A DNA stretch of 53,743 nucleotides, from positions 1 through 53,743 of the forward strand of contig CAIJRN010000044.1 of assembly GCA_903823115.1 (NCBI GenBank), given 5' to 3'. This document shows, one piece after another, positions 1,226 through 43,771 of the stretch. Origin of the DNA: an uncultured cyanobacterium (GTDB lineage Bacteria > Cyanobacteriota > Cyanobacteriia > PCC-6307 > Cyanobiaceae). Position 1 is the stretch's first letter. Every line of letters begins with the position of its first letter. The notes beneath the pieces were generated by a model. It did no database searches. It saw only the letters and a list, made by a program, of their open reading frames with translations, and had not been told where the DNA came from. Both the position numbers and the translations under genes were made by a program.

Positions 1226-1483
1226 TCAGCCTTTGGACCTGGCTTTGGCTTTCTTGGGGGCAGAGGAGGCTGCCGGAATGTCACCACCGCTCACGGCCAC
1301 TTCGGTGATCTTGCCGCCCATGCGCTGGACCAGCCGCATGGTCTCGTTCATGCGGGTGTAGGGAACCTGCATGACGCAGTCGGAGCTGCGCACGAAGTCG
1401 TTGTTGGCCAGCCCGGTGACGGTGATGGTGACCTGGCGGCCATTGCTGAAGCTGGTGCCTCGGGTGCCTGCAGAAACCTTCAT
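1226..1483 (-). CDS. cpcD: Phycobilisome rod-capping linker CpcD
   Basis: A small (85-residue) rod-capping linker that ends phycocyanin rods and limits their length. The CpcD domain is visible from about residue 14 to 60 (QVTITVTGLANNDFVRSSDC, then YTRMNETMRLVQRMGGKI). The same domain type ends the neighbouring CpcC. The start at ATG 1483 is chosen because it gives the family N-terminus MKVSAGTRG; longer readings into cpcC are out-of-frame shadows. The C-terminal ~20 residues form a basic, Ala/Lys/Ser-rich tail (APKKAKARSKG). It lies 43 bases after cpcC and is probably cotranscribed with it. Confidence 0.93.
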   Translation of the reverse strand: MKVSAGTRGTSFSNGRQVTITVTGLANNDFVRSSDCVMQVPYTRMNETMRLVQRMGGKITEVAVSGGDIPAASSAPKKAKARSKG

Positions 1484-1526
1484 GGGGTTGATGCCGTGAG
1501 TGGGGACAAGGGGGGAGCGAAGCCGC

Positions 1527-2372
1527 TCAGTTGACGGGGGTGAGGCTGGCGATGCGGCCTCCCTGGCGCTGCACCTGCTGCTGCACCTCCAGCAACTTGT
1601 TGAATGGCACGAACAGCACCCGATTGCTGCGCTTGTGCAGGCGGTAGTTGTTGAAGCCGGTGACTTCCACCCGGAAGGTGCGGCCCTCTTCGCCGGCACC
1701 GACGCCCTGACGGGTGACACCGTCGCTGGAGACGGCGCGGAAGGCGCTGCCCTTGGCATTCGGACTGACGACCGACATCGGCTTTTCTGAGTGCACCGCG
1801 GGGTTCAGGCGCGACTGGGTCTTGAGGGCATCGCCTCGTACCGAGGCACCCACGCCGCGGGCCAGCTGCAGCATGTAGGAGAACTGCAGGCCCTGTTGGC
1901 CGGCGGAATAATCCCAGCCGTGCAGGAAAGGAACCACCTCTTCACCAAAGCGATTCTGGTATTCGGCGCTGTCGAGGTAGGAATCGATCTCGGCGTCGAA
2001 ACCCTGCTCCTGCAGGATCGTGAAGTGGTGCAGCATCTCCGCCTTGTTCTGGGGAGCGCGGCCGAGCAGGTGCTTGAAGTTGAGCTCAATGAAGCGGTAG
2101 GCGTTGCAGTTTTCGAAGAACTTGCCCTTGTACAGACCGCTCTTGGCCACCTGGCGCACGAACTCCCGCACACTCAGATAGCCACGCCTGAAGAGCGATT
2201 CAGGCCCTTCCAGCCGCTCGCTGGCCATGATGTACTGGTTGCCGAGCACCTGCTTGTAGACCGCACGGATCAGGGCCGCCTTGTCGTTTTCGGTGGCGTT
2301 GGACCAGTTTTCCTTGTTGCGGTCGCTGGCGAAACGCTCGATGCCCAGATAGGCAGCGTTGGCGAGTGTCAT
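1527..2372 (-). CDS. cpcC: Phycocyanin-associated rod linker CpcC
   Basis: A 281-residue rod linker of the ~30-kDa class that joins phycocyanin hexamers and tunes their energy transfer. The N-terminal phycobilisome-linker domain spans about residues 18-150 (e.g. YKQVLGNQYIMASERLEGPE, then LFRRGYLSVREFVRQVAKS). A CpcD-like domain occupies about residues 228-278 (RTFRVEVTGFNNYRLHKRSN). The two-domain order and length match CpcC. It heads a cpcC-cpcD unit placed upstream of cpcBA, instead of the textbook cpcB-A-C-D order. The divergent coiled-coil gene begins 207 bases upstream. Confidence 0.96.
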   Translation of the reverse strand: MTLANAAYLGIERFASDRNKENWSNATENDKAALIRAVYKQVLGNQYIMASERLEGPESLFRRGYLSVREFVRQVAKSGLYKGKFFENCNAYRFIELNFKHLLGRAPQNKAEMLHHFTILQEQGFDAEIDSYLDSAEYQNRFGEEVVPFLHGWDYSAGQQGLQFSYMLQLARGVGASVRGDALKTQSRLNPAVHSEKPMSVVSPNAKGSAFRAVSSDGVTRQGVGAGEEGRTFRVEVTGFNNYRLHKRSNRVLFVPFNKLLEVQQQVQRQGGRIASLTPVN

Positions 2373-2579
2373 GGGCGTGGGCCTGGGGAGATGGCGTTGG
2401 GGAGAAGGCGGTTCGGCAGCCTGAATGTCTCAACCTGAGGCTGCTAGCCGGATCCTATGGGGCTGCCTTGACCTCAGGACAAGGCTTCCACAATCGTTAC
2501 AAAGGCTCGGCCGCGCGCCCCCCTGGCGGCGCCGGGCTGTGCCGATACCATCCCGCCAGAACCCTGGCACCGTTTTGCC

Positions 2580-3011
2580 ATGACATCCGAGTCCCAGCCT
2601 CTGGCCTGGTCCAGTCGCCTGGCCGATCAGCTGCAGGTGCTCTCGGAGGTGGCCGAAAGCCTCACTTATCGCATGCTGATGCTCGAAGAGCGGCTGGCGG
2701 GTCAGGAGCAGCGTCTGCTGGAGCCGGCGGATGGGGTTGATCCCCTGCTGGCCGAGGAGATGGAGCTGCGGCTGCTCGATACCGAGGAGCGATTGGCCCG
2801 CATTGAAGGCCTGCTGGGGGATGGGGAGGCCGCCGCCGCCGGACGCCATCTGCAGCCGGTGCGGCCTGCAGGTCGCCCAGCCAAGGACCTGACGCGGCCA
2901 GGATCGGCGCGCCAGGCCTCTGGAGCGGGGCCCGTCGAAGCGGAGATCCTCCAGGACGATCCCTTCCTCGACGAGGGCGAACAGCCCTTCATGGATGAGT
3001 TGACCGCCTAG
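2580..3011 (+). CDS. Conserved hypothetical coiled-coil protein
   Basis: A 143-residue acidic protein that I do not recognise as a named family. The first ~85 residues are Leu/Glu-rich with heptad-like spacing (LADQLQVLSEVAESLTYRML; EMELRLLDTEERLARIEGLL) and should form a coiled coil. The C-terminal half is low-complexity, Pro/Ala/Gly-rich, then acidic (DDPFLDEGEQPFMDE). No signal peptide or membrane segment is seen. Its position between divergent cpcC and convergent cpcL suggests a link to phycobilisomes, but this is inference only. Its stop codon overlaps the stop codon of the convergent linker gene within CTAG (3008-3011). Confidence 0.7.
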   Translation: MTSESQPLAWSSRLADQLQVLSEVAESLTYRMLMLEERLAGQEQRLLEPADGVDPLLAEEMELRLLDTEERLARIEGLLGDGEAAAAGRHLQPVRPAGRPAKDLTRPGSARQASGAGPVEAEILQDDPFLDEGEQPFMDELTA

Positions 3012-3775
3012 GAGCCGGCCGTGCTCAGCATGGTGGCGGCGATGTAGATCACCAGGCCGGTGAGCGCGAAGCCGCCGGTGGTGACCAGTCCCTGCCAGAT
3101 CTTGCGAGCCAGAGGTGAGGGGGCATCGGCGAGCCAGGCGGGGCGGGGCATGGAGAAGCCGCCGCTGGGAGCCCAGGCCGTGTTGTGACCGGCCGGCGCC
3201 CGGCGTGCCACCGCTTCGCGCCAGTAGCGGTCGTAGCGGGGGGCCTGCTGGTTGAAGGGCACGGTCCCCTGGGACTGGCCGGCCAGCACCCTGGAGCGCT
3301 GGTAGGGCACCGTGTCGTAGCCGAAGTTGTTGAGATAGTCGTCGGAGTTGAGCAGGTGGTCGATCAGCCCACCAAGGCCCTGCTGGGCGATCAGAATCGA
3401 GAGGGCGATCCGCTCCTGGTTGCTGTGCACCGGTCGACCCAGAGCCCGGCCGACGATCTGATCGACCATCCGATAGTTGCTGTTGCAGCGATAGAAGTCG
3501 TCACGGAATTTGTTCGACAACAGCAGAGCGCGCACAAAGTCCCGCACGGTGATCTGGCGGCTGCGCAGCTGGGATTCGAGCACGGCGTCGCGGTCCACCT
3601 TGAAGGCGTGAAAGAAGATCTGCCGGTAGGCCTGTTCAATCAGCTCGTCGGCACTGGTGGCGTTGCGCCCGATCGTCTGGGGCACCTGGCGGGGGGTGTC
3701 GTCGTTGCCGATGGCGAAGGGATTGACCCGGGCGTTCTGGCTGACGGGAGCTGTGGACAGCAAGGGGAGGGTCAT
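3008..3775 (-). CDS. cpcL: Rod linker with C-terminal membrane anchor (CpcL / CpcG2 type)
   Basis: A 255-residue CpcG-family linker. The phycobilisome-linker domain covers about residues 25-170 (e.g. LIEQAYRQIFFHAFKVDRDA, ITVRDFVRALLLSNKFRDDF). The C-terminal ~30 residues contain an uninterrupted hydrophobic helix (LVTTGGFALTGLVIYIAATM), which CpcG1-type rod-core linkers lack. In characterised cyanobacteria (CpcG2/CpcL) such a helix anchors coreless phycocyanin rods to the thylakoid, where they serve photosystem I. The ATG at 3775 gives the family N-terminus MTLPLLSTAPVSQNARVNPF; an upstream in-frame extension is arginine-rich and unlike the family. A conventional CpcG must be sought elsewhere in the genome. 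Confidence 0.9.
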   Translation of the reverse strand: MTLPLLSTAPVSQNARVNPFAIGNDDTPRQVPQTIGRNATSADELIEQAYRQIFFHAFKVDRDAVLESQLRSRQITVRDFVRALLLSNKFRDDFYRCNSNYRMVDQIVGRALGRPVHSNQERIALSILIAQQGLGGLIDHLLNSDDYLNNFGYDTVPYQRSRVLAGQSQGTVPFNQQAPRYDRYWREAVARRAPAGHNTAWAPSGGFSMPRPAWLADAPSPLARKIWQGLVTTGGFALTGLVIYIAATMLSTAGS

Positions 3776-4318
3776 GGTATTGGAGGGGGAGTACTGCCCG
3801 AAGGTTGCGGCGCACCGTAGGCGGAGTATTCCGATCTTCCCTGCACCGGAACCAACTCGCCAAAGTCCTTCACGTCGCCTTCGCGGCGTCCGTGGCGATT
3901 CCGGCCCGAGCATCAGTGGCGGGCCTGGAGCCTGGGGCGAGGGAGGGTCGCCGGGGCACCGATCCCGCCGGCGATCGTGCCGTCCCTGTCGGTGCCGTCG
4001 GACAGTGTCTGCCGCGATCTCGGGCGCTGTCGTCGGGTTGCCCGCTCGGCGTTGGTCTGGTGTGGTGATCTGCGGTTGCTGACTCGAATGGCTGTGGGGC
4101 CCAGGCCGGCAATCGGGCGTCCCTGTCGGGCGGTCCCTTGGGCTGTCGCCGGTTCGCTCGCTGGCGCTGGGCTCTGGTTGATCGGTTGGCGCTGGGCTGG
4201 CCAGGCCTTGTTCAACGTTTCCGGACAGCCCTGAGGGCTTGCTTGAGTCCCCCGGACAGCCCCATCTGTTCTGCCAGTGCCGTTGCCTGGCCTGTCTGGA
4301 CGCCGTGCTGTTCCGGAC
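3776..4318. other. Gene-free interval between cpcL and cpcT
   Basis: These 543 bases hold no frame that looks coding: translations in all frames are Arg/Ala/Pro/Ser-rich and resemble no family. Short imperfect direct repeats of the type ttggcgctgggct occur near 4160-4200. The upstream signals of cpcL should lie at the low-coordinate end. No clear terminator was found. Confidence 0.6.
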
Positions 4319-36827: not shown

Positions 36828-37073
36828 TTGCGGCTGGTTGATCTGACTGCCGGCGAATCCTGCATGGTCACGGTGCTTGGGGTGGAAGCGGGGCTGCGTC
36901 ATCGGCTGGAGGCGCTCGGTATCAAGCCCGGCCAGCAGGTGAAAGTGCTGCGGCGCGGCTGGTGGTCGGGCCCGATCCATCTGCGCGTCGGCATGACGGA
37001 GTTGATGCTGCGTCGGGTTGACGCTGCCCGCGTCGAGATTTGCGCCGTCGATCCCGGTCGGGTGGCCCCATGA
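36828..37073 (+). CDS. feoA: Ferrous iron transport protein A
   Basis: An 81-residue SH3-like cytoplasmic protein that assists FeoB. The FeoA fold is seen in DLTAGESCMVTVLGVEAGLR, RLEALGIKPGQQVKVLRRG and PIHLRVGMTELMLRRVDA. It starts at TTG 36828, since no ATG precedes the conserved N-terminus. Its TGA overlaps the feoB ATG (ATGA), the usual translational coupling. A Fur box lies upstream. Confidence 0.92.
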   Translation: MRLVDLTAGESCMVTVLGVEAGLRHRLEALGIKPGQQVKVLRRGWWSGPIHLRVGMTELMLRRVDAARVEICAVDPGRVAP

Positions 37074-38923
37074 CCCATGGCCTCGATGCCGCCGGGCTGA
37101 CCCTGGTGCCTGGTCAGGCCACGGTGGCGGTGGTGGGCATGCCCAACACGGGTAAATCCACGCTCTTCACCCAGCTCACCTCAGCCCATGCCCATATCGG
37201 GAACTGGCCCGGGCTGACGGTGGATTTGATGCAGGCGGAGCTGAATCTTGAGGGACGCAGCGTCCAGCTGGTGGATTTACCGGGCATCTATGACCTGCGC
37301 GGCCACTCGGAGGATGAGGCCGTTGTGCGTCGCTTTCTCGAGTCCACTTCGGTGGATCTGGTGGTGGTCATCCTCAACGCCTCCCAGATCGATCGTCAGC
37401 TCAGACTGGCCCTGCAGGTGCGGCAGCTGGGCCTGCCGGCGTTGTTGTTGTTGAACATGGCCGATGAGGCCAGGCGTTTCGGCGTCGGCATCGACCTCGA
37501 CCAGCTCGCTCGCCAACTGGAGCTGCCGGTGCTGTTGATCAGCGCCAAGTACCGCCAGGGTCTGGCTCAGGCCCGCCAGGCCATCGCCAGGGAGCTGACG
37601 GCTGCCGTGCCTGGCGCGGCTTGCCCGGTGCGGGATCTGGAGATCAGGCTGGCCGCGGCGGATGACGACCTGGCCGGCTCGATGGAGTCCATCCTCCGGG
37701 CCGCTGTTACCTTCCCGGCCCAGTGGCGCGACGCCCTGACCCGCCGGCTGGATCGTTGGCTGTTGCATCCCGTGCTGGGCCTGCCGATCTTCTTTCTGGT
37801 GATGGCCCTGATGTTTCAGACCATCTATGCCCTGGGGGTGCCGATGCAGGGGGCCCTGGGCACCCTGATTTCGAATTTCAGCCAGTACGTTCTCAGCCCC
37901 TTGCTGGTCAGTTGGCCGCCCTTCCTGCGGGGGTTCATCATCGATGGACTGGTGCTGGGAATCGGCACGGTCAGCGCCTTTCTGCCGGTGATCTTCCTGT
38001 TCTTTCTCGCCATGGGTGTGGTGGAGGACAGCGGCTATCTCTCGCGGGCTGCGTTTCTGATGGATGCCTTCATGGAGCGGCTGGGGCTCGATGGCCGCAG
38101 CTTTGTGCTGTCTTTGATGGGCTTCGGCTGCAATGTGCCGGCAATTCTCGGCACCAGGGTGATGCGCTCGAGTGGATTGCGGCTGCTCTCGATGCTGATC
38201 ATTCCCTTCTCGCTCTGCTCAGCTCGCCTCAATGTCTTTCTGTTCATGGCGTCGGTGTTCTTTGCGCCGCGCCAGGCTGCCCTGGTGATCTTCGGGCTCT
38301 ATCTGCTCAGTTTTGGCGCTGCGATTCTGACGGCACTGCTGTTCAAGGGACGCTTTGCCAGTGAAGAGGCCCTGGTGCTGGAGCTGCCTCCCTATCGTCT
38401 GCCGACGATCCCCCAGGTGCTGCGCCGGGCCTGGGCGGAGGTGCGCCATTTCTGGTTCTGGGCCCGTCGGTTCATCATCTTCGGCGTGGTGAGCATCTGG
38501 TTGCTCAACAACCTGCCCCTCGGTGTCGCCCCCGCTTCCGCCCAGTCCCTTTCCGGTCACCTGGGCGAGCTGCTGCAGCCCCTCCTGGCACCGATCGGCA
38601 TCAATCCCAGGTTGACGGTGGCGCTGGTCTTCGGCTTCATCGCCAAGGAGATTGTGCTGGGCGGCCTGGCAGTGATCTATGGCCAGACCGCCAGCAGCGG
38701 TGCACTCGGACACGCCCTGGCCAGCGAGGTGAGCTGGGTGCAGGCGGTGAGCTTCATGCTGTTCACTCTGCTCTACACCCCCTGTCTTTCCACGGTGGCG
38801 GTGATTCGAACGGAGTCAAAACGACTCGGCTTCACTATATTTTCCGTGCTCTGGTCGCTGATCCTGGCCTGGTTGGTCAGTTTTTGCTTTTATCAACTGG
38901 CCTGGCTCGTGGGTTGGCGTTGA
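37070..38923 (+). CDS. feoB: Ferrous iron transporter B
   Basis: A 617-residue Fe2+ permease with an N-terminal GTPase domain and a C-terminal membrane domain of about eight helices. G1 is VAVVGMPNTGKSTLFTQLTS, G3 is VDLPGIYDLRGHSEDEAVV, and G4 is LLNMADEARRF. The membrane gate motifs GFGCNVPAILGTRVMRS and LLYTPCLSTVAVIRTES are intact. It is shorter than the ~770-residue E. coli protein, as usual for cyanobacteria. ATG 37070 is set by overlap with the feoA stop. Confidence 0.95.
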   Translation: MTHGLDAAGLTLVPGQATVAVVGMPNTGKSTLFTQLTSAHAHIGNWPGLTVDLMQAELNLEGRSVQLVDLPGIYDLRGHSEDEAVVRRFLESTSVDLVVVILNASQIDRQLRLALQVRQLGLPALLLLNMADEARRFGVGIDLDQLARQLELPVLLISAKYRQGLAQARQAIARELTAAVPGAACPVRDLEIRLAAADDDLAGSMESILRAAVTFPAQWRDALTRRLDRWLLHPVLGLPIFFLVMALMFQTIYALGVPMQGALGTLISNFSQYVLSPLLVSWPPFLRGFIIDGLVLGIGTVSAFLPVIFLFFLAMGVVEDSGYLSRAAFLMDAFMERLGLDGRSFVLSLMGFGCNVPAILGTRVMRSSGLRLLSMLIIPFSLCSARLNVFLFMASVFFAPRQAALVIFGLYLLSFGAAILTALLFKGRFASEEALVLELPPYRLPTIPQVLRRAWAEVRHFWFWARRFIIFGVVSIWLLNNLPLGVAPASAQSLSGHLGELLQPLLAPIGINPRLTVALVFGFIAKEIVLGGLAVIYGQTASSGALGHALASEVSWVQAVSFMLFTLLYTPCLSTVAVIRTESKRLGFTIFSVLWSLILAWLVSFCFYQLAWLVGWR

Positions 38924-39777: not shown

Positions 39778-40002
39778 ATGCGATTCACGCTTCCCCTTGC
39801 CATGTTGGCCGCGACTTTAATCGCGATTCCCGCGGCGTCAGCCAAGGTGGTGGCCCAGGGCAAGCCCAGCCCTGGTGGTTTCTTCTGGCAGAAGAATGAG
39901 AAGGCCGATGGCAGTATCCAATTCCTGTGTCGATCCACCAAGACCTCAGGCATTCAGAAGAATGCCCAATGCGATGGAGCCAGGGCCGTCAAGCCACGCT
40001 GA
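39778..40002 (+). CDS. Small secreted protein, unknown function
   Basis: A 74-residue ORF with a clear signal peptide (MRFTLPLAMLAATLIAIPAA, then a likely cleavage after SASA-K/AxA near residue 22). The mature part is ~52 residues, basic, with two cysteines (FLCRSTK; NAQCDGAR) that could pair. I recognise no family. A longer in-frame reading upstream to 39532 is unlikely because it buries the signal peptide. It is followed by a PAS-porin ORF 157 bases on. Confidence 0.7.
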   Translation: MRFTLPLAMLAATLIAIPAASAKVVAQGKPSPGGFFWQKNEKADGSIQFLCRSTKTSGIQKNAQCDGARAVKPR

Positions 40003-40159
40003 AGCCAAATGTCCACCTGGCCTGCCCGCAGTTTCCTGTTGATATGGGTGTCCTGTCGGTCCAGATCCGATAGCCCGTGGCGTCAAGGCGGCAGCTTGGA
40101 GTGTTTGTCAAACCATGGATCACCCAACGCTGAGATGCTGAACATGCAGGCCGCAAACC

Positions 40160-42394
40160 ATGGTGCAGACCCTTGATCGACCCGGTCAATCGTTGGCTCT
40201 ATTGCAGGATCTCTGCGAGAACACCAGTGATCTGATTCAGGTTATCGGTATCGATGGGGGCGTCCAGCTGGTGAATCCTGCCTGGTACCGCAGCCTGGAC
40301 TATGGCCCTGAGCAAGCCTTGGTGCTCAATGTCTTTGCCTTGATTGCTCCCGATCACCTGCATCGCTGTCAGCTCGTCTTCCAGTCTCTGACGGCAGGCC
40401 AGCCCAGTCAGTCAATCAGCTGTGCCTTGATCACCGGTGCCGGCACTCTTATTGCCCTGGAAGGCCAGCCGGATGTGCCTTTTGATCAGAATCAGCCGGC
40501 TGCCGTGCGCCGCATCCTCCGCGATATCAGCGACCGCCAGCAGGTCGAGTATGCCGTGCGTCAACTGAATGCCACGCTTGAGCAAAAGGTGCACGAGCGC
40601 ACGGTTCAGCTGCTGAACAGCGAGAAACGGCTGCACGAGGCCCAGAGGGTCGCCAATGTCGGCGATTGGGATCGAAATCTGGCCAGTGGCACTCTCGTCT
40701 GCTCGGATCAGATCTGTCGTATCCATGGCGCTGACATCCTGCGAGGCCTGGGGGTGGAATTGGCCCAGGGGTTTCTTGCTGTCCCGGCCATGCCGGAGCC
40801 GGAGCAGCGCTGCCGGGCAACGCCGGTGTGCAGGGCAAGGCCGATGGGCTGGGCAAAGCCGATGGGCTGGGCAAAGCCGATGGGCTGGGCAAAGCCGATG
40901 GGCTGGGCAAAGCCGTGGCGAGCGGGGTGGTTGAGGTGCCTGGGCAGTGCTGCCCTGATCATGGCCACGTCCATCGGCCCCGCGAAGGCGGCAGATCCCC
41001 AGACGCCGCTGGTTACAGCTGCGGGCCCGCCCCAGTCGGCGCTGCCGGTCAAACCGCTGATCCCAACAGCGCCAGCTTCAACAGTCCTGCCCCCGTCCGT
41101 GGCGTCAGCGGCAGTGGCAGCCTTGGCAACGGCAGCAGTGGCAACCGCGGCAGTGGCAACCGCGGCAGCGGCAGGGACGCTGCCCCCATCGGCCCAGCCC
41201 GAGCCGCCCCTGGCCTTGGCCCAGTCCTGGCCCACGCTCAATGGGCTGCTCAAGCTGCCGTCCTGGATCAATCTGGCGCTCAGTTACCAGGCTGACGGCT
41301 TCCTCAATCCCAGCGGCGGCCTGGTTCAAGGCCGCAACTCGATTCAGCAGACCACGCTTGATGCCAGCTTCAGCAGTGGCTTCGGCAAGGAGCAGCAGCG
41401 CTGGAGTGAGCTCGATCACTGGCGGGTTCACGGGGAGCTTGCCCTTGTCAGCGGTGTTGCCGGCTATGGCCAACGGATCGGCGCGGCCTTCCCGCTGACA
41501 GCCCTGGATAGCCCCACCGGTTTCTGGATCACCGAGGCCAGCATCGAGCGGCTTGGTGAGGCCGTGGATGTCAAGGCGGGCCTGTTTTCACTGGATCCTG
41601 GCTTCGTCAACGCGCCGGTGTTGAACAGTTATCTGAATACGGTTTTCAACGATGTTCTCAATCTCAATCAGCCAGGCTTGCCGATCAACCCCTATGTGGC
41701 GCCGGGGCTTGAGCTGCACTGGCGGCCGGCCGCCGCCGATCCGACCTTGCCCGGCGATAGCGGTGCCTTGGGCGAATGGCATTACGCCGCCTATGTCCTC
41801 AATCCCAGCATCCATGTGGCAGCCCTGCTGGGGGTCGTGCCCAATGAACCGAGCTTTGCGGGCCATTTGCAGGTGCTGCAGTGGCGCTTCGATCGTCTGC
41901 CCGGGGCCCGGCGGCTGGTGGCGCCGATTCGCCAGCGGGGCCAATCCCTCACCCGCATGCTGCCGGTGCCCTTGTTACAGCTGGGTGGTGGTTATGTCGC
42001 CGATGACAGCAGCGGCGTGATTCTGCCGATGCTGTTTGGCTCGCTCACTCTGGCGCCCGAGTTGCCGATCGGCCTGGACAACCGGCTCTGGCTCGGACTC
42101 AGCGGCGGCAATCAAGCGGGCGGCAATCCCGTCACGCTGTTCGGCAGCGGTGGCTGGCTCTGCCAGGGCCTGATTGCCGGGCGCCCCTTTGATGTGCTGT
42201 CCCTGGGCTTTGGTCGCAGCAGCTTCAACCAGCAATTGCTGGCGGGCCTGCGGCCGCAATCGCTGCTGGAGCTCAACTACAGCTTCAATCTCAACAGCAG
42301 CCTGTCGCTGCAACCGGTGCTGCAGTGGATCCAGGCTCCGGCAAGTATTGGCTCGATTCTGGCGCTGGGCCTGCAGCTGCAGCTGCAGTTCTGA
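40160..42394 (+). CDS. PAS-domain sequence joined in frame to an OprB-like porin
   Basis: A 744-codon frame with two unrelated parts. Residues ~10-135 form a PAS sensor domain with trailing PAC region (VRRILRDISDRQQVEYAVRQ) and a coiled linker. A second PAS begins at LHEAQRVANVGDWDRNLASG but breaks off after about 45 residues. Then come four perfect MGWAKP repeats (229-252) and a signal-peptide-like stretch (GWLRCLGSAALIMATSIGPA, then KAAD). An Ala/Pro-rich linker precedes a beta-rich outer-membrane domain (about 375-744) that resembles carbohydrate-selective OprB porins and ends in LQLQLQF with C-terminal Phe. A porin would need its signal peptide at the N-terminus, so translation may really start at a repeat ATG. 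Confidence 0.7.
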   Translation: MVQTLDRPGQSLALLQDLCENTSDLIQVIGIDGGVQLVNPAWYRSLDYGPEQALVLNVFALIAPDHLHRCQLVFQSLTAGQPSQSISCALITGAGTLIALEGQPDVPFDQNQPAAVRRILRDISDRQQVEYAVRQLNATLEQKVHERTVQLLNSEKRLHEAQRVANVGDWDRNLASGTLVCSDQICRIHGADILRGLGVELAQGFLAVPAMPEPEQRCRATPVCRARPMGWAKPMGWAKPMGWAKPMGWAKPWRAGWLRCLGSAALIMATSIGPAKAADPQTPLVTAAGPPQSALPVKPLIPTAPASTVLPPSVASAAVAALATAAVATAAVATAAAAGTLPPSAQPEPPLALAQSWPTLNGLLKLPSWINLALSYQADGFLNPSGGLVQGRNSIQQTTLDASFSSGFGKEQQRWSELDHWRVHGELALVSGVAGYGQRIGAAFPLTALDSPTGFWITEASIERLGEAVDVKAGLFSLDPGFVNAPVLNSYLNTVFNDVLNLNQPGLPINPYVAPGLELHWRPAAADPTLPGDSGALGEWHYAAYVLNPSIHVAALLGVVPNEPSFAGHLQVLQWRFDRLPGARRLVAPIRQRGQSLTRMLPVPLLQLGGGYVADDSSGVILPMLFGSLTLAPELPIGLDNRLWLGLSGGNQAGGNPVTLFGSGGWLCQGLIAGRPFDVLSLGFGRSSFNQQLLAGLRPQSLLELNYSFNLNSSLSLQPVLQWIQAPASIGSILALGLQLQLQF
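40843..40914 (+). repeat. Four perfect 18-bp tandem repeats
   Basis: The unit gatgggctgggcaaagcc occurs four times without a mismatch, preceded by the partial copy gcaaggcc. In the frame of the surrounding gene each encodes M-G-W-A-K-P; because 18 is a multiple of three, copy-number change would keep the frame. It sits exactly at the junction between PAS and porin parts. Confidence 0.97.

Positions 42395-43771
<1,377 letters not shown>

Follow-up and report, generated by a model that had tools for sequence, protein, structure and literature searches.

A continuous reading frame from a PAS domain into an OprB-type porin in an uncultured member of the Cyanobiaceae is most likely the outcome of gene decay

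A single open reading frame of 744 codons (40160 to 42394, plus strand) in a 53,743-bp stretch of DNA from an uncultured cyanobacterium of the family Cyanobiaceae, hereafter called the window, runs from a sensory domain into an outer-membrane porin, and raises the question of whether the two are parts of one gene product or were brought together in some other way. The frame begins with ATG, contains no internal stop codon, and ends in Phe. Read from its N terminus, it consists of a PAS domain, a coil, the beginning (~40 residues) of another PAS domain, ~25 residues resembling the C terminus of EAL domains, an array of 18-bp repeats, and a porin composed of a putative signal peptide, an Ala/Pro-rich linker, and an OprB-type barrel. 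The original prediction described the frame correctly with respect to the first PAS domain, the abrupt end of the second, four identical repeat units, the signal-like stretch, and the OprB-like terminus in Phe. We conclude that the frame is a collage and find no support for reading it as a sensor-porin fusion protein. With a probability of roughly 0.7, we favor the explanation that a decayed signalling gene was joined by chance, and in frame, to an intact downstream porin gene by way of two deletions; ordinary gene decay is the most likely background to these events.

The first domain (40160 to 40552) belongs to a truncated signalling gene. The sensory box model TIGR00229 matches residues 10 to 130 with 38.7 bits (cutoff, 22.9; E = 9e-10), and the Pfam PAS score in the frame falls below its cutoff (15.9 versus 22.6). 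The domain is followed by a coil and an N-terminal stub of a second PAS domain (40553 to 40744), which, in comparisons by eye with full PAS domains and PAS-coil-PAS proteins, starts at HEAQRVANVGDWDRNLASGTLVCSDQICRIHG and breaks off at CRIHG without its core. GC content by codon position is coding-like in the first domain (68/40/66) and is 71/39/70 over 40553 to 40750. Overall, the PAS half (69/40/67.5% GC by codon position) is free of stops and has a coding-like codon bias, and it may still be translated. Its GC content at third positions (GC3), 67.5%, is lower than that of five neighboring genes or gene parts (78 to 87%) and similar to that of one small neighboring gene (67.6%), a pattern compatible with recent decay or with foreign origin but not clearly indicative of either. 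Terminator-like sites occur within the PAS half at 40309 (plus strand) and 40602 (minus strand).

Sequences matching the PAS half at an E value of ≤1e-5 were found in 21 of 60 genomes, including its own. Among 12 such relatives inspected by eye, 11 were histidine kinase-like, 1 was a GGDEF protein, and none was EAL-like. Searches of the 60 relatives and of 299 genomes drawn from the order did not recover an intact version of the sensor gene, and no genome but its own carried the PAS half at an E value of ≤1e-12 among those 299. A broader set of genome contigs returned one weak match (46 residues at 39%) and again no intact gene, and the full open reading frame had zero matches in viral contigs.

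The stretch that separates the PAS stub from the array (40730 to 40825; DILRGLGVELAQGFLAVPAMPEPEQRCR), a component absent from the original prediction, resembles the C-terminal tail of an EAL (c-di-GMP phosphodiesterase) domain, the match to the C termini of such domains lying at about residues 192 to 214 (ILRGLGVELAQGFLAVPAMPEP). A profile of 34 EAL C termini scored the tail at 14.6 bits and the next-best peptide, excluding its own copy, at 11.0 bits, in a search space of 3,529 six-frame peptides of 60 residues, taken from the window and the loci of eight relatives. In a blind search of the 60 genomes with 33 residues, 9 of the 29 non-self loci examined proved to be EAL C termini aligned in the same register (for example, ALRAMGCELAQGFVIARPMPA). 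Since six of these nine carry a near-identical tail, they amount to about four independent families; rough binomial bounds for the matches are 2e-26 when 9 of 29 loci are treated as independent and 3e-11 for 4 of 24. Five of the nine EAL proteins were fetched and rejected as possible parents, as they have GAF-like or receiver N termini by eye and match the PAS half at an E value of 0.06 at best.

Other tests of the tail gave weak results. No EAL domain was named by Pfam in the short tail peptides, and the full-length EAL profile gave the open reading frame 3.8 bits (E = 0.14), yet placed it at the top of the list. When the search space was the whole window, the tail scored 13.0 bits, and the top two of 20 codon-shuffled windows came close at 12.8 and 11.6 bits; ranked instead on the best single stretch, the tail (8.8) fell behind three of the shuffles (11.9, 10.2, and 9.6). 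The identification of the EAL tail thus leans on the blind search, with weak whole-window and full-profile tests beside it. The catalytic core of an EAL domain is missing: no EAL family matched the frame at an E value of ≤1, and the core residues do not occur in its translation.

A counterpart of the tail was among the other 20 loci of the blind search. Upstream of the porin gene in the relative G016 (contig C101), with no PAS domain, lies a remnant (GLAQGFLYAPAMPEPYLRCR) with 78% identity over 55 bp to the tail in the window; it scored 7.5 bits with the 34-tail profile, ranking fifth. The remnant stands in the porin's frame and then runs into its own TGA. Of 19 codons compared between the two genomes, 9 are the same in both, another 6 show synonymous differences, and the remaining 4 encode different residues. 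From this codon-wise pattern, the tail would once have been coding in this frame, and it was probably protein coding in the same frame in both lineages. Probably, then, the ancestral locus carried, ahead of the porin, a PAS-...-EAL gene that has been mostly lost elsewhere. No intact gene of this kind was found at the locus, and the parent is reconstructed from its two ends. In outline, the earlier proposal was right that a signalling gene had been truncated and joined to a porin gene.

Alternatively, the ~25 residues might not be an EAL tail at all, and a horizontally transferred PAS fragment might have met, at its end, the old upstream DNA of the porin gene. Such a history would be consistent with a GC3 in the PAS half below that of the five neighbors (a property also of the small neighboring gene), with the restriction of the PAS half, at an E value of ≤1e-12, to a single genome among the 299 from the order, with the weak results from the Pfam peptides, shuffled windows, and full-length profile, and with DNA from 40761 onward being common to the upstream region in G016. 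We nevertheless consider it unlikely, given that the blind search placed the stretch on EAL C termini in register and that conservation with G016 follows codons in the same frame.

The 18-bp tandem array extends over 40812 to 40917 (about six units) and occupies a second junction, that between the EAL tail and the porin signal peptide. Four of its units are identical (ATGGGCTGGGCAAAGCCG; 40844 to 40915) and are the sole copies in the 3.42-Mb genome at two or fewer mismatches, and the outer units have diverged. The repeats had been proposed as the scar between PAS and porin sequences. They do mark a junction, but PAS sequence stops about 70 to 100 bp ahead of them, in the EAL C terminus, and the PAS/EAL junction lies upstream of the repeats at about 40730 to 40760. 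We rejected a dispersed mobile repeat. Similar arrays (GGGCTGGGCAACAGCCGT-like) lie at unrelated genes in G032 (contig C280, 23573 to 23636) and G007 (contig C42, 30533 to 30613), the latter in the N terminus of what by eye is an acetolactate synthase-like gene, and matches to the array pattern in G061, G024, G016, and contig C461 of G032 look like one common sequence. A search for flanking repeats that would explain transposition gave only short, chance-like matches.

Relatives suggest what may have stood at the second junction before. The genomes G011, G007, and G016 have in common a leader of ~200 to 225 bp ahead of the porin signal peptide (none of 500 shuffles reached any of the pairwise scores), which, in the porin's frame, reads, for example, MALTPGITSHQLPVSGPGCLFPGLG in G016 and MAIPPSTASHQRWVSGDSCLPPGLG in G011. 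This leader is missing from the window, in which 40804 to 40892 resembles the leaders of G011, G007, and G016 only at chance level (121, 104, and 170 of 500 shuffles, respectively, were as good). Unmasked gapped BLASTn of 40804 to 41007 against G011 gave a 69% match overlapping the end of the G011 leader, and this signal comes from after 40893, with 79% DNA identity over 40893 to 41002. Tail and signal peptide are separated by 300 bp in G016, compared with 114 bp in the window, where the array fills nearly the whole interval. Given the leader comparison and this spacing, the array lies in the place expected of the leader and the stop codon of the signalling gene. Neither leader nor tail is found in G032, G028, and G021, so the window is not alone in having lost sequence here.

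After the array comes a signal-like stretch (LGSAALIMATSIG, continuing to AKA/AD), and within the array the in-frame ATGs at 40844, 40862, 40880, and 40898 (40844 to 40900) are candidate starts for the porin. A start at 40898 would give a normal-looking putative signal peptide of 31 residues (MGWAKPWRAGWLRCLGSAALIMATSIGPAKA, 40898 to 40990, followed by ADP), with a cut at AKA/A placed by eye and a hydrophobic core like that of the orthologues in G011, G007, G016, and G032. There follow an Ala/Pro-rich linker (40991 to 41230) and the barrel (41231 to 42394), which ends in a C-terminal Phe and a stop codon. The linker contains 15-bp repeats at 41124 to 41173, and imperfect 15-bp repeats can be traced over 41099 to 41174. 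Pfam PF04966 (OprB) matches the porin half with 45.5 bits versus 22.9, covering only its last 95 residues (404 to 498), and no SLH domain was matched in Pfam at an E value of ≤1. Over 389 codons, dN/dS of the barrel is 0.19 to 0.24 against six orthologues, which among themselves give 0.18 to 0.33. The barrel is under purifying selection and, since its values are in line with those of the orthologues, the porin probably remains in use. As originally argued, such a porin needs an internal start; it is probably made from one, most likely an ATG of the array.

The porin half matched sequences in 22 of 60 genomes, its own included (E ≤ 1e-10). PAS half and porin were found at one place in none of the 59 other genomes (porin, E ≤ 1e-10; PAS half, E ≤ 1e-5); besides its own genome, only G008 and G024 match both halves, which there lie on different contigs. 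Conservation of the same PAS-porin architecture across many genomes, the observation that the original prediction had named as contrary to it, was thus not seen. Six relatives (G011, G032, G028, G021, G007, and G016) carry an orthologous porin at the locus with 72 to 82% amino acid identity, and the PAS half is absent from their loci (best tBLASTn E value, 0.15). The genes feoA and feoB (36828 to 38923, plus strand) form a conserved left anchor, and feoB and the porin share a contig in five of the six; in G016, which is 64% complete, the porin is apparently split over two contig ends, one of them also with feoB. The left flank recurs in each of the six relatives; the right flank, as far as 46.2 to 46.5 kb, is common to G011, G028, G021, and G007.

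Two neighboring genes deserve description. To the left of the frame, a small gene (39778 to 40002, plus strand; 74 amino acids if ATG 39778 is the start) occupies the same position in G007 and G016, the neighborhoods inspected; it occurs in 12 of 42 genus genomes, its own included, and its product looks secreted by eye (KVVAQGKPSPGGFFWQKNEKADGS..CDGA) and belongs to no Pfam family. To the right, an amidohydrolase gene (42395 to 43771, minus strand) abuts the porin stop tail to tail, and the corresponding loci of G011 and G016 contain no match to most of it. On contig C386 of G016 (1380 to 4016), an 879-amino-acid GGDEF-EAL-type frame, its GGDEF recognized by eye, directly follows the porin where the window has the amidohydrolase.

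The shared flanks bear on whether the frame is an artefact in which two loci were joined, or the array miscounted, during assembly. The genome is a draft of 86 contigs, but a single 53.7-kb contig contains both junctions, the array is short, and the flanks agree with those of relatives on either side; we regard an artefact as highly improbable. The relatives also weigh against the whole 744-residue chain being one working protein. The single open frame is in its favor, but the PAS half is missing at the locus in all six genomes with an orthologous porin, the second PAS domain has no core, and the signal peptide would be internal, at about residue 250, which speaks against such a chain from what is known of Sec export. 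We give this idea almost no credence.

Nor does the length of the frame by itself decide for fusion. Upstream of a common porin landmark, 361 codons are open in the window, 320 in G007, 215 in G016, 150 in G011, and 92 in each of G032, G028, and G021, all six relatives being without the fusion. With 92 to 320 open codons ahead of the porin in fusion-free relatives, an open frame needs no selection. This consideration also applies to the suggestion that the locus is a real two-function gene, in which translation of the PAS stub through the array couples to or interferes with translation of the porin at the internal ATGs, making the junction regulatory. In its favor, the PAS half lacks stops and shows a codon bias like that of coding sequence, the loss of the leader common to three relatives may mean that expression has to start further upstream, and no sigma-70-like promoter was found in 39900 to 41300, although such a scan is a weak test. 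On the other hand, the arrangement occurs in one genome and in none of 59 others, and a repeat unit of 18 bp, being divisible by 3, leaves the frame unchanged whatever the copy number. We therefore judge a two-function gene to be improbable.

It is less probable still, in our estimation, that the remnant has been co-opted, such that the porin, having lost its leader, is expressed only via the PAS-stub transcript and the repeat ATGs serve as a ladder of alternative starts. If this were true, the number of ATGs would tune the length of the signal peptide, or the translation rate, of an outer-membrane channel. The locus would then be a contingency locus that is length tunable and not frame switching, the frame-switching unit that marks phase-variable loci being absent here.

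Under the preferred explanation of two deletions, the parent would have been a cyclic-di-GMP signalling gene of PAS-PAS-(probably GGDEF)-EAL organization upstream of the porin. A GGDEF domain usually stands between PAS and EAL, and we assume that the parent had one. One deletion would have taken out the interval between the beginning of the second PAS domain and the final ~25 EAL residues; a second, possibly later, would have removed the stop codon of the signalling gene together with the porin leader, leaving an 18-bp slippage array at the junction. The porin would now be translated from an internal start, probably an ATG of the array such as that at 40898, be exported, and act as a conventional OprB-type channel of the outer membrane. 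Without an output domain, the PAS stub would be a remnant or give an inert product.

The frame can be set beside known systems. PAS-GGDEF-EAL is an architecture of cyclic-di-GMP phosphodiesterases, and the frame resembles these in having a PAS N terminus and an EAL C-terminal tail in one frame; unlike them, it has no GGDEF domain and is missing nearly all of EAL, so that catalysis is impossible. Deletions are also known to fuse the remnants of pseudogenes to neighboring genes. The frame resembles such cases in the loss of a domain core and a stop codon, in its occurrence in one genome, and in a neighbor still under selection, but differs in that no stops interrupt the remnant and in the 18-bp array at the second junction. 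The porin is like the OprB porins of cyanobacteria (PF04966) in its C-terminal barrel match and terminal Phe, and perhaps in its putative signal peptide, and unlike them in having an Ala/Pro linker in place of SLH; one study reports an SLH domain in seven of nine putative Anabaena porins (PMC9705863). The fusion itself was unreported in the literature searched, which comprised open-license PMC papers.

These results suggest that what looks like a spectacular domain fusion can come, in a GC-rich genome, from two ordinary deletions. Gene calling by the longest frame would add about 250 wrong N-terminal residues to this porin and hide its putative signal peptide, and a porin miscalled in this way could drop out of outer-membrane inventories. 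If the two-deletion explanation is right, the locus would be a small natural case of a gene that has lost its leader and is offered new start codons by a repeat array.
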